Assembly (NCBI GenBank): GCA_002702705.1
Contig: PABH01000028.1
Location: 186,001-250,000 of the forward strand
Length of the DNA stretch: 64,000 bases
Source: Anaerolineaceae bacterium
GTDB lineage: Bacteria; Chloroflexota; Anaerolineae; Anaerolineales; Anaerolineaceae
Direction of reading: 5' to 3'
The notes beneath the pieces are model-generated. The model was given only the letters and a program-made list of their open reading frames with translations. It searched no databases and was not told where the DNA came from. This document shows, in pieces, positions 18,822 through 23,054 of this stretch. Made by a program: the position numbers and the translations under genes. Each line of letters starts with the position of its first letter. Position 1 is the first letter of the stretch.

Positions 18822-19376
18822 TTATGGTTGAATGAATGGGGTAATGGTTTGTGCCAAAGTGTTTTCCGTGAATAATCCGACATGGATATACTGCACAATA
18901 CCATTCCCATCGACCAAAATTGAAGTAGGAAAGCCCGTTACTCCCATTTCTAGTAAAGTATGGGCTTCAGGATCTAATACGACGGGAAATGAATAGTTAT
19001 ATGAATTAATAAAATCCGCGGCTAATTGTTGGGGCTCTCCGGCGTTAACCGCCAAAACCACAAAGTCGGAATTTTGGTGCTTCTGATAAAAAGCTTCGAG
19101 CGCAGGCATTTCTGCGCGGCAGGGGGGACACCAGGTTGCCCAGGCATTAATTAAGACTGTTTTTCCCGCATAATCACTTAATTTCGCCGGGTTACCGTTT
19201 AAATCAAGGAGTTCAAAATCACCAATTGGTTTACCAATTTGTGCCAGATTAACACCTTGTACCTCCGCCTCATGGCTGGCTACTAACAGAATACTGATTA
19301 TCACAAAGACGGCAAGTCCAATCAATATTTTTTGGTTTCTTTTTTTTGTCCTGGTTGTATTTGAGTTGTTTTTCAT
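18822..19376 (-). CDS. Membrane-anchored TlpA/ResA-like thioredoxin-fold protein
   Basis: This 184-residue protein has a positively charged N-terminus, one transmembrane segment (about 17-33) and an external thioredoxin fold of the AhpC/TSA-TlpA class. The redox motif is Cys83-Pro-Pro-Cys86 in NAWATWCPPCRAEMPAL, and a cis-proline occurs in TGFPTSILVD. Such proteins reduce disulfides outside the membrane, for example in cytochrome c maturation or envelope protein repair. No cytochrome genes are nearby, so the partner is unknown. Confidence 0.93.
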   Translation of the reverse strand: MKNNSNTTRTKKRNQKILIGLAVFVIISILLVASHEAEVQGVNLAQIGKPIGDFELLDLNGNPAKLSDYAGKTVLINAWATWCPPCRAEMPALEAFYQKHQNSDFVVLAVNAGEPQQLAADFINSYNYSFPVVLDPEAHTLLEMGVTGFPTSILVDGNGIVQYIHVGLFTENTLAQTITPFIQP

Positions 19377-19495: not shown

Positions 19496-19525
19496 AAATA
19501 ATTAATCGTTTTTTTGGAGGTTTCT

Positions 19526-20077
19526 TTGAAAAAAAATATTTTTATTCTTTTATTAATTGTATTAATTGGCGGCTTGTTTTTTGTATTCAACCAGCCCTAT
19601 CATGCAGAAGCACAACCAACCAGATTTCTTTCGGATTCAAGGGTGGAGACATGGACATTTGGCGTTACCTCTGAGGGAAGTGCAGCTTATTCTGAAACAG
19701 CCAGCCGATTGATTACGAATGTGGCTTCATTCCGTGCGAATCAGGGAGAAAATGATGTTTATTTTATTTTCCCTGCACCTGCAGAAACAAAAACCGTGCA
19801 AGCAGGCAGTGTGAATTTTTTGTCACGTTCGGGAACAACCCCCAATACAGCTACCTTAAGTTTGGATGTGGTAAATCTGGATGGAACCTGGCAGCATACG
19901 GTAACCCAATCTTTGGATGCCTTGGTGATTACGTCCGGTGATTGGGTCGATTTTACTCTGTCAGATGTGCCCGCCGATTTGGTGATTACCCCAGGACAAA
20001 CATTGGTTGCTCACCTCACATTTTCAGAACCGGGTGATTTGGATATCAAATGTATATTTGATATTGAAGTGGAATAA
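19526..20077 (+). CDS. Exported protein of unknown function (first of three-gene cluster)
   Basis: This 183-residue protein starts with TTG, supported by GGAGG 5 bases upstream. Residues 1-20 form a hydrophobic signal sequence (KKNIFILLLIVLIGG). The mature part is rich in beta-prone Thr/Ser/Val sequence without cysteines until one near the end, and it reads like a single beta-sandwich domain. The next gene encodes a protein of similar size and plan. I recognise no family. It probably acts on the cell surface with the S74-containing protein downstream. Confidence 0.6.
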   Translation: MKKNIFILLLIVLIGGLFFVFNQPYHAEAQPTRFLSDSRVETWTFGVTSEGSAAYSETASRLITNVASFRANQGENDVYFIFPAPAETKTVQAGSVNFLSRSGTTPNTATLSLDVVNLDGTWQHTVTQSLDALVITSGDWVDFTLSDVPADLVITPGQTLVAHLTFSEPGDLDIKCIFDIEVE

Positions 20078-20081
20078 GCCC

Positions 20082-20663
20082 ATGTCCATTCAGAACAGAA
20101 AAATTTATCTCAAAGGATTGGGCCTGGGTTTCACCCTAATCTTTCTTTTAATTACCCTAACCGGTGGCCTGGTATATGGTGCATCACGCTCTGCTCACTT
20201 GGAACATTGGCGATATATATATTCCATCCCATCTTTAGACCAATTGCAAGATCCGGTTGGCCGAGGTTTATCTTTGGTGAGAAGCCACAATGGTCAAACT
20301 GCATTCGATGTTTTTCCGACCCATGCTGTTTTATTCACCCTGGAAAAAGTGAATATTTTGCTGCCTGAAGCGGTTATCACGGAAGGATATCCAGTGACAT
20401 TAACCGTATTCGCTGTCAGTGAACAAGGAACCGTGAGTAGGGAAATCACAGAGTGGGAGATCACAACAGATACATTACAAATTGGTGAATGGTTGACTAT
20501 TTTTGAAAGCACCTCAGAATCGATCTCACCAGAAGAAACGCTCGTTGTTCGTTTGACCTGTGAACAAAATATGGATCTTCAAATTGCATACGAAGTAACC
20601 GTAAATATTTATGACTCAGAGAATCCGTTATTAAAAATCTTCTTACCTTTGATTTTAAAATAG
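20082..20663 (+). CDS. Exported protein of unknown function ending in FLPLILK
   Basis: This 193-residue protein begins 4 bases after the preceding stop. It has a signal/transmembrane segment (about 13-33, GLGFTLIFLLITLTGGLVYG) and a beta-rich mature part similar in plan to the previous protein (roughly 150 residues, an ExxEW/'TLQIGEWLTI' region matching its neighbour's 'SGDWVDFTL'). It ends in KIFLPLILK. A terminal '(Y/F)LPL(I/V)..' peptide is frequent on exported Anaerolineae proteins as far as I recall. A longer in-frame reading lies inside the previous gene and is rejected. Confidence 0.6.
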   Translation: MSIQNRKIYLKGLGLGFTLIFLLITLTGGLVYGASRSAHLEHWRYIYSIPSLDQLQDPVGRGLSLVRSHNGQTAFDVFPTHAVLFTLEKVNILLPEAVITEGYPVTLTVFAVSEQGTVSREITEWEITTDTLQIGEWLTIFESTSESISPEETLVVRLTCEQNMDLQIAYEVTVNIYDSENPLLKIFLPLILK

Positions 20664-20677
20664 GAAAGTGAAAAACT

Positions 20678-22405
20678 ATGAAAAAGAAACTATCAATAAT
20701 TAGCATTTTTATCTTGTTAACGATGGTATTAAGTGCAGTGTGGATGCCCGTTCAAGCACAGGACAGTGTGGATAATCTACAACTCGTTTTGCAAGATGGG
20801 GTTTTAGAGTGGCAAACCGGATGGAAAGATCAGGTTTCAAACTTAACCATTGGTTACCCTGATAATCGCACAACAGAATTAACCTTTACGGATGGTAAAG
20901 CGGTTCAGTTCGATACAACGACGTTAAAAGATGGTGTTTATACCTTTCGTTTAGTTGGTTTTCCATTGGCTGATTATGAACTTTTGAGTCAAGCAGCTTT
21001 GAGTGAGGATGGCCGTGATCGGATCTTAACCAACTTGAGTGATTTGGAAACTCATATTTGGAGCGGTAGTTTCAGCGTGCTAGATGGAATTATTTATTTG
21101 CCGGAAGCAGAAGATTTGTCAGAAGAAACTTCTATCGGGATCAAAGATGTAGTTACCGCCGATGATGCCATTATAACCGGTAGTCTTTGTGTTGGATTTG
21201 ATTGTGTGAACGGTGAATCCTTTGGTTTTGATACCATTCGATTAAAAGAAAACAACTTACGCATCAGGTTTCTAGATACCAGTAATTCAGCCGGTTTTCC
21301 AACGACAGATTGGCAAATAACCATAAACGATTCAAACAGCGGTGGGGCAAGTTATTTCGCAATTGATGATATTGATGGCGGCAGGACACCATTTAAAATT
21401 GAAGCAAATGCACCAAGCAACAGCTTGTACATTGAAGATTACGGCCGGATAGGTTTTGGCACCAATAACCCCGTTGTTGAACTTCATATAGCGGATGGAG
21501 ATACTCCTACTGTCCGGCTTGATCAAGATGGAACATCAGGTTGGTCGCCTCAAGTTTGGGATGTGGCTGGAAATGAATCAAATTTCTTTATTCGGGATGC
21601 GACCAATGGAAGCAAGCTGCCTTTCCGGATTCAGCCGAGTGCACCTTCAAGCAGCTTAACAATTAAAAACACCGGAAATATTGGTTTCGGAACATGGTTA
21701 CCGGAAACTAGTTTACATATTTTTGACCTGGATTCTGCCCCAACCATTCGTTTTGATAATGGGACGTATGCTTGGAACGTATCAGGTTCCGCATCCGGTT
21801 TTGTTGTAAACGACGGCACAACTGACAAAAACCCATTCCAAATATTAACTGGAGCAGAATCAGATAGCCTGGTCATCAGCACAGATGGAAAAGTTGGCAT
21901 TGGTACCCAAGCACCACAAGCGGAACTGCATGTGGAAGGGGACGCATTTGTGAATGGTGATATTGTGTTGGAAGGATATATCAGTGAACGGTCCGATGTA
22001 GCCGCTAAAGAGAATTTTAAGGTTGTAAGCGGCCGGCAGATTTTGGATCGATTAGCAGAACTCCCCATTACCACCTGGAATTATAAGGGTGATGCTTCAA
22101 CTTTGCATATTGGCCCAATGGCACAGGATTTTTATGGGTCCTATGGCGTTGGTAAAGACGATAAACATCTCTCCGCGCTGGATGTGAACGGGGTTGCATT
22201 AGCTTCCATCCAAGAGTTAAACCGGATCGTAGAAGAAAAAGATGCCCAGATTGCTAATTTGGAAGCCGATTTGAGCAGCTTAAATAAGCGGGTTCAGCAG
22301 CTTGAAACCGGCCAATCTGGGAGCACGCTTAACCTGGTTTTACCTTTTGTGTTTGGTTTGGGCGGTATGGTTTTGGGGGCATTGTTTTTATCAAAACGCC
22401 GTTAG
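20678..22405 (+). CDS. Exported tail-fibre-like protein with C-terminal S74 intramolecular chaperone domain and membrane anchor
   Basis: This 575-residue protein has a signal peptide (1-27, ending VQAQ), a beta-rich region, and about three degenerate repeats of roughly 70 residues built around 'PF.I....SSL.I...G.IGFGT..P...LHI'. A peptidase S74/endosialidase-chaperone domain starts near residue 439 with SDVAAK (cleavage-type Ser-Asp, Lys444) and includes GPMAQDFYG and LDVNGVALASIQEL. A coiled coil follows (505-545), and then a C-terminal transmembrane helix with KRR. S74 domains trimerise beta-helical fibres and then self-cleave. Here the domain precedes a membrane anchor, so cleavage would release the fibre. 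Phage genes are absent, so this is a cellular surface protein. Confidence 0.8.
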   Translation: MKKKLSIISIFILLTMVLSAVWMPVQAQDSVDNLQLVLQDGVLEWQTGWKDQVSNLTIGYPDNRTTELTFTDGKAVQFDTTTLKDGVYTFRLVGFPLADYELLSQAALSEDGRDRILTNLSDLETHIWSGSFSVLDGIIYLPEAEDLSEETSIGIKDVVTADDAIITGSLCVGFDCVNGESFGFDTIRLKENNLRIRFLDTSNSAGFPTTDWQITINDSNSGGASYFAIDDIDGGRTPFKIEANAPSNSLYIEDYGRIGFGTNNPVVELHIADGDTPTVRLDQDGTSGWSPQVWDVAGNESNFFIRDATNGSKLPFRIQPSAPSSSLTIKNTGNIGFGTWLPETSLHIFDLDSAPTIRFDNGTYAWNVSGSASGFVVNDGTTDKNPFQILTGAESDSLVISTDGKVGIGTQAPQAELHVEGDAFVNGDIVLEGYISERSDVAAKENFKVVSGRQILDRLAELPITTWNYKGDASTLHIGPMAQDFYGSYGVGKDDKHLSALDVNGVALASIQELNRIVEEKDAQIANLEADLSSLNKRVQQLETGQSGSTLNLVLPFVFGLGGMVLGALFLSKRR

Positions 22406-22420
22406 GTAATGTTATTTTTC

Positions 22421-22450
22421 AAAAAAAGCCGGAATTTTCCGGCTTTTTTT
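22421..22450. terminator. Bidirectional rho-independent terminator
   Basis: A7-GCCGGAA (22421-22434) and TTCCGGC-T7 (22437-22450) form a perfect stem flanked by A and T runs between convergent genes. The stop codon of the - strand phosphatase gene lies at its right edge. Confidence 0.9.
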
Positions 22451-23054
22451 ATATCCATCGAGTTGGGACTTGTTGGTTTAAGTGGATCAATTTTCCCACA
22501 TTGTTAATAATTCGGATGGTACTGACGGAGGCAGGGGCAATTCGTAAAAAATTAAATTGGTTTAACGGCAATCCAATCGCTGCACTGACACTGTGACGGA
22601 TGATTGAACCATGACTGAAAATAGCAATGACGCTTTCCTGTGGTTCTTTTTGGGCATAAGATAACAAGGCCTGATGCACCCTTTCTCGAACCGCAGCAGC
22701 TGATTCTCCATTCGGCGGCGTGATTTCACTGGGGCGCTGTTGAAAGGTCTTCCATGCGGGTATTAAGTCCAGTTCTTCAAAAGGAATACCCTCCCAATCT
22801 CCAAAAGAAACCTGCAAAAAACTTTTTTCTATGGTTACTGGCAGGTTAAGTTGTTTTGCTAAAGGTTGGGCGGTTTGTTGAGCACGTAGCAGCGGGCTGC
22901 TTAAAACTTTTTGAATCGGTAAATGAGTCAGGGTGTCCGCGAGAAGGGATGCTTGTTGGTGCCCCTGTTCATTGAGTGGGCTGTCAATCCGCCCCGCCAG
23001 AGCATTACTTACATCATCGGTTTTTCCATGTCGGATCAATAAGAAGGTAGTCAT
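22449..23054 (-). CDS. Histidine phosphatase family protein (phosphoglycerate-mutase-like)
   Basis: This 201-residue enzyme has the phosphohistidine motif LIRHGKTD (His9) and later the conserved VIAIFSHGSIIR with the second catalytic His, plus PNGESAAAVRERV. These are the marks of the branch-1 histidine phosphatases, which include GpmB-like and CobC-like enzymes. It is the last gene of a - strand operon with a rhodanese gene and a second phosphatase of the same family. The substrate cannot be told from the sequence. Confidence 0.9.
   Translation of the reverse strand: MTTFLLIRHGKTDDVSNALAGRIDSPLNEQGHQQASLLADTLTHLPIQKVLSSPLLRAQQTAQPLAKQLNLPVTIEKSFLQVSFGDWEGIPFEELDLIPAWKTFQQRPSEITPPNGESAAAVRERVHQALLSYAQKEPQESVIAIFSHGSIIRHSVSAAIGLPLNQFNFLRIAPASVSTIRIINNVGKLIHLNQQVPTRWI

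Follow-up and report, generated by a model that had tools for sequence, protein, structure and literature searches.

What use does a bacterium have for a fibre protein that carries an export signal at one end and, behind a Peptidase_S74 domain, a membrane anchor at the other? The question is raised by three plus-strand genes that form a unit in the 64,000-nucleotide stretch of the Anaerolineaceae contig PABH01000028.1 analysed here (the window), which belongs to a genome of 5.9 Mb in 74 contigs. ORF1 (19526-20077), ORF2 (20082-20663), and ORF3 (20678-22405) are separated by gaps of 4 and 14 bases, respectively, and ORF1 starts with a TTG codon, with GGAGG at 19516-19520. The unit is flanked by two minus-strand genes, a redoxin gene on the left (18822-19376) and, on the right, a histidine-phosphatase-like gene named from sequence only (22449-23054). 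By eye, a terminator-like stem-loop (GCCGG-AATTTT-CCGGC) with a T run lies at 22428-22449, without strand assignment, although the automatic terminator scan reported nothing at this position. All three products have a strong hydrophobic N-terminal segment, and ORF3 alone has a second, C-terminal one. The gene order, the N-terminal segments, the PF13884 match, and the C-terminal helix of ORF3 bear out the initial sequence-only reading of the locus as an exported three-gene cluster ending in an S74 protein with a membrane anchor.

ORF3 (575 aa) is the sole S74 protein found across its own genome, and the order of its parts, its catalytic dyad and the hydrophobic segments at both termini are evident from the sequence or the structural model. 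A signal peptide (approximately aa 1-28, 20678-20761, its end placed by eye; KD19 hydropathy of 2.42 at aa 5-23) is followed by an Ig/FnIII-like domain (approximately aa 33-140, 20774-21097), which AlphaFold2 modelled with block pLDDT values of 83-95 over aa 31-100 and 65-92 over aa 101-140, and which matches 3sd2 with a target TM of 0.71. The fibre region (21143-21961) contains three capping motifs, G-x-[IV]-G-[FI]-G-T-xx-P/A-xxx-LH, located by motif search at aa 256, 333, and 404, and has a sequence match to Bd2133, a Bdellovibrio MAT chain of the non-S74 group (E 1.7e-10); approximately aa 163-345 are strongly conserved in an alignment of 33 sequences (A3). The monomer model is weak in the later fibre part (block pLDDT 41-51 over aa 311-430; pTM 0.32), and the beta-helix is deduced from the motifs and homology rather than from a good model. 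The S74 core (21992-22132) matches PF13884 over aa 439-485 (E 1.4e-8; 35.3 bits against a curated cut-off of 22) and retains, in SDVAAKE at aa 439, the intact SDxxxK dyad of Ser439 (21992-21994) and Lys444 (22007-22009). It resembles the ICA domain of MyRF (7dc3) in the model (rmsd 3.2, target TM 0.63), and ORF3 also matches 7dc3 in sequence (E 1e-5). A modelled coiled-coil helix (aa 500-549, 22175-22324) leads to the C-terminal transmembrane helix (approximately aa 553-571; modelled helix aa 555-574; KD19 2.33), which ends in the basic tail KRR (helix and tail, 22334-22402).

In the available sections of PMC8326128, mass spectrometry places the MyRF cut between P586 and S587, the latter being the Ser of the MyRF dyad, S587 and K592 are essential and correspond to S911 and K916 of endoNF, and cleavage depends on the trimer. 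The bacterial protein Bd3182, which has SDxxxK, also self-cleaves, and cleavage is abolished by S782A, according to the accessible text of PMC10769870. Because the MyRF cut falls directly before the dyad Ser, the bond cut in ORF3 should be Arg438-Ser439, and the bond originally proposed, Ser439-Asp440, is not favored by this comparison. By analogy, ORF3 probably cuts itself loose from its membrane anchor.

We consider it somewhat more probable than the opposite that ORF3 folds while tethered to the membrane and is then released as a fibre by self-cleavage. The signal peptide would export the chain and the C-terminal helix would hold it on the outer side of the membrane, where the coiled coil and the S74 domain would join three chains and fold the beta-helix. 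Once complete, the S74 trimer would cut each chain just before Ser439 by means of the Ser-Lys dyad, so that the fibre (approximately aa 29-438) would leave, with S74, coil, and anchor remaining in the membrane. For trimer, cut, and release we extrapolate from other S74 proteins, namely MyRF, endoNF, and Bd3182. The N-terminal Ig-like domain, or the ORF1/ORF2 pair, in which ORF2 has a putative YLP-type sorting tail, might then hold the fibre at the surface or bind a target; that ORF1 and ORF2 dock or display the fibre once it is free is a guess.

In layout, ORF3 resembles MYRF/MrfA, which shows the same order of payload, beta-helix, S74/ICA domain, coiled coil, and transmembrane helix, and in which the payload is freed by self-cleavage, as proposed here for ORF3 (available sections of PMC8326128, PMC3742443, and PMC3828593). 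However, MYRF has an Ndt80-type DNA-binding domain and a cytoplasmic payload, whereas the ORF3 payload, judging from the signal peptide, would lie outside the cytoplasm; no Ndt80-type domain is among the Pfam matches of ORF3. In the accessible parts of PMC10769870, the S74 group of Bdellovibrio MATs (Bd3182) is likewise exported, with a beta-helix bearing capping-loop motifs and an S74 domain with SDxxxK; the motif is given as V-G-G/N-pi-X-X-P-X-X-X-L, and motifs of this kind are reported for both Bdellovibrio MATs and MyRF. The MATs have a conserved beta-rich domain of ~130 aa after the signal peptide; the ORF3 model places a beta domain of ~110 aa there, at most a candidate counterpart. The same text, from which the word transmembrane is absent, describes neither a C-terminal membrane anchor nor a partner pair for the MATs, and ORF3 has both. 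Phage S74 tailspikes and fibres, such as endoNF and the T5 L-shaped fibre (4uw8, among the weak fold matches of the ORF3 model), likewise place an S74 chaperone-protease behind a beta-helix, but ORF3 lies outside a phage and adds an export signal and an anchor. Since cellular S74 fibres are already in print (PMC10769870, in the text available), what is new here is the anchor, the phylum bias, and the partner arrangement. Our literature search found no paper on S74 in Chloroflexota, none on the YLP-box, and, for S74 combined with transmembrane segments and autoproteolysis, no bacterial example of the ORF3 layout.

The arrangement of ORF3, a MYRF layout turned outward, recurs in Chloroflexota. 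We found S74 in 52 of 298 genomes of the class and 20 of 400 of the phylum, the two samples overlapping. Counting only ORFs with the stop codon in hand, collapsing rows identical over their final 100 residues and including a few fragments (two L179 rows and one each from L142 and L186), S74 is followed by a C-terminal helix (KD19 ≥ 1.6) in 60 of 116 Chloroflexota ORFs (52 of 100 within the class, 8 of 16 in other classes of the phylum) versus none of 61 from other phyla, in samples that differ, the 61 having been chosen by likeness to ORF3 and most Chloroflexota rows by PF13884. Fisher's test gives p 6e-15 for this bias, with genome relatedness ignored. Weaker helices (KD19 1.2-1.6) add 10 class ORFs and four from other Chloroflexota classes, again versus 0/61. 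The anchor that the sequence-only reading placed on an S74 protein behind two exported proteins is present in the window; however, two of the five loci with ORF1/ORF2-type genes (G036 and L029, below) lack the C-terminal helix. The tether is thus not needed in every member, given these two loci and the 42/116 Chloroflexota S74 ORFs with KD19 below 1.2.

The C-terminal helix could also be read as a sorting signal. Some C-terminal sorting signals are processed by enzymes, LPXTG and PEP-CTERM tails being examples, and the helix and basic tail of ORF3 might be removed in the same manner, leaving no lasting tether while S74 would still trim the fibre. A short helix that closes the protein with only a K/R-rich end behind it fits such a signal, and K/R-rich ends stand behind most of the post-S74 helices in the Chloroflexota listing, in several of which LP, PW, or WP occurs by eye before or at the helix start; in addition, NCBIfam lists the tail of the partner proteins described below as a putative sorting motif. 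Against this, the NCBIfam sorting models gave no hit to ORF3 at E 10, and no constant motif precedes the helix across the Chloroflexota listing, by eye. We regard this reading as unlikely. It is improbable, too, that ORF3 is a permanently displayed adhesin, one that is cut slowly or not at all and whose fibre remains on its anchor with the N-terminal domain pointing outward. Such a protein would need no more than a signal peptide, a fibre, and an anchor, and some homologs carry Ser or Asn at the aligned Asp, but 111 of 116 Chloroflexota rows retain both Ser and Lys (SDK in 102, SNK in five, SSK in four). That ORF3 is left over from a phage tail fibre acquired by accident and has no cellular role is very hard to credit, because, although PHROG tail-fibre families match it (best 7e-10), its neighbors are ordinary cellular genes, the matches to phage records (five, covering no more than 40% of the query) are confined to the fibre repeats, the only viral-contig relative (L249) has by eye neither C-terminal helix nor signal peptide, 483 stretches of the genome collection encode relatives, and the reading frame is intact and conserved. 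The cellular neighbors, signal peptide, and anchor agree with the original view of ORF3 as a cellular, non-phage fibre protein.

Tethered folding followed by release being the reading that we prefer, we turn to the partners. Directly after many Chloroflexota S74 genes, often with overlapping start and stop codons, lies a gene for a small exported protein with the consensus YDLSWxTVDGGGGxSxGGxYxLxGTxGQPDAGxLxGGxYTLxGGFW...YLPLVLR. NCBIfam (NF050076 / NF053834) names such a tail the YLP-box, a putative sorting motif; when two such partners taken from other genomes were compared with NF050076, one attained the model score of 15 and the other 12.8. Of 113 Chloroflexota cases, 45 encode a YLP-type tail downstream of S74 (41 of them with gene overlap), versus 0/61 in others, and five of the 113 encode one upstream, upstream counts being lower bounds because the upstream flanks are short in many loci. 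Where no downstream tail is encoded, the genes still overlap in 31 of 68 Chloroflexota cases, and they do so in 8 of the 61 others. By profile, the downstream partner was recognized in 61/113, with seeds taken from the same loci; the tail count is independent of that profile. Among the 298 class genomes, 160 encode the small partner, which is present in 48 of the 52 S74-bearing genomes and in 112 of the 246 that lack S74 (relatedness ignored). Exclusivity of this partner to S74 is rejected by the latter count.

The genome of the window has no copy of this small partner. ORF2 (193 aa), itself exported, ends in FLPLILK (20640-20660), a tail similar to the YLP-box, although NF050076 (model score 15) did not report ORF2 at E 10. 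Since tailed exported partners recur beside Chloroflexota S74 genes, ORF2 looks like a local form of this common arrangement of an S74 fibre gene and a tailed exported partner. Tails of this kind are frequent in the genome of the window, where the pattern [YF]LP..hh[KR] has 50 matches in the DNA, the ORF2 tail among them, versus 16 for the reversed pattern, and 19 of 30 loci (L219-L248) close a frame of at least 225 residues, placing YLP-box-like tails on long proteins (for example, L228, L234, and L240).

ORF1 (183 aa) has no YLP-type tail. It was right to describe ORF1 and ORF2 as two small, exported, beta-rich proteins upstream of S74, and the two are, in addition, homologous to each other: a single profile of ~150 residues, with both among its seeds, covers ORF1 (E 6e-54) and ORF2 (E 7.9e-48), and F54, P55, G92, and W112 (numbering of the ORF1 piece) are invariant in the family. 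Pfam, NCBIfam, and PHROGs gave no family above chance scores for either protein. The ORF1 model, of moderate confidence (pLDDT 67.4, pTM 0.65), is a jelly-roll-like sandwich and falls among jelly-roll sandwiches in Foldseek and VIA-align comparisons. The best Z is 10.3, to 8yzo (rmsd 4.4 over 130), and the xylan-binding CBM15 1gny gives 9.5 (rmsd 3.0 over 118). A carbohydrate-binding role suggested by the latter match is only a lead, from a model in which no residue reaches pLDDT 90.

The ORF1/ORF2 family was found in five loci, namely the window, G005/L053, L063, G036, and L029, the G005 ORFs being identical to those of Chloroflexi bacterium HGW-Chloroflexi-10 (L053). In all five, there are two copies that adjoin an S74 gene, the first untailed and the second tailed (FLPLILK, FLPLIMK, FFPLIVK, FLPLVGR, and YVPIFAK); in L029, the two copies are fused and placed after the S74 gene. 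Among the 298 class genomes, only G000 and G258 carry the family, the G258 copy lying beside an S74 gene in what is probably the L029 locus and, hence, one of the five. Among 12 chosen genomes, the own genome included, matches at E < 0.001 were obtained for ORF1 in three and for ORF2 in two. Conserved co-occurrence of the three genes, initially suggested as a check, thus holds from the side of the pair, which stands beside S74 in 5/5 loci, but not from that of S74, 50 of the 52 S74-bearing class genomes lacking the family. For the S74 family at large, the upstream pair is not the rule, and most homologs occur without it (the pair family in 2/298 genomes, S74 in 52/298), an outcome that the initial reading had itself named as counting against it.

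Within the genus, the three genes come and go together as a unit, in two positive genomes only, since they are present together in two members, the window and G005, where they lie between the redoxin and phosphatase genes, and these flanks are joined in three others (G001, G006, and G007), where the redoxin and phosphatase genes are immediate neighbors and three genes would not fit between them. In G002, the neighbor is the second phosphatase gene, and in G003, also of the genus, no matching locus was found. G004 has another gene, reductase-like by eye, at the site of the unit (L256 2052-3038).

A wider proposal, which we put forward with considerable doubt, is that Chloroflexota possess a phylum-specific system in which a trimeric fibre held by S74 and a helix is released, and a translation-coupled YLP-box protein receives or displays it, an extracellular counterpart of the MYRF layout that might even be older than MYRF. 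PMC3742443 (in the text available) presents MYRF as the repurposing of a phage tailspike domain in eukaryotes, and an outward-facing counterpart from bacteria, its parts in the same order, makes the origin of the MYRF layout testable. The ORF3-type set also offers a simple system for studying whether S74 cleavage is timed by membrane tethering, and it links the YLP-box tail, so far named only as a putative sorting motif, with a definite partner and operon.

Two further observations concern S74 genes more generally. Two to four such genes lie close together in tandem in L033, L036, L044, L148, and L153, on contigs of Acidobacteria, Thermoanaerobaculia, Deltaproteobacteria, and Chloroflexota. 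A subgroup outside Chloroflexota (L043, L054, L056, L058, L064, L084, L087, L092, and L099) carries Ser at the position that aligns with Asp (SSxxxK) and keeps both Ser and Lys of the dyad.
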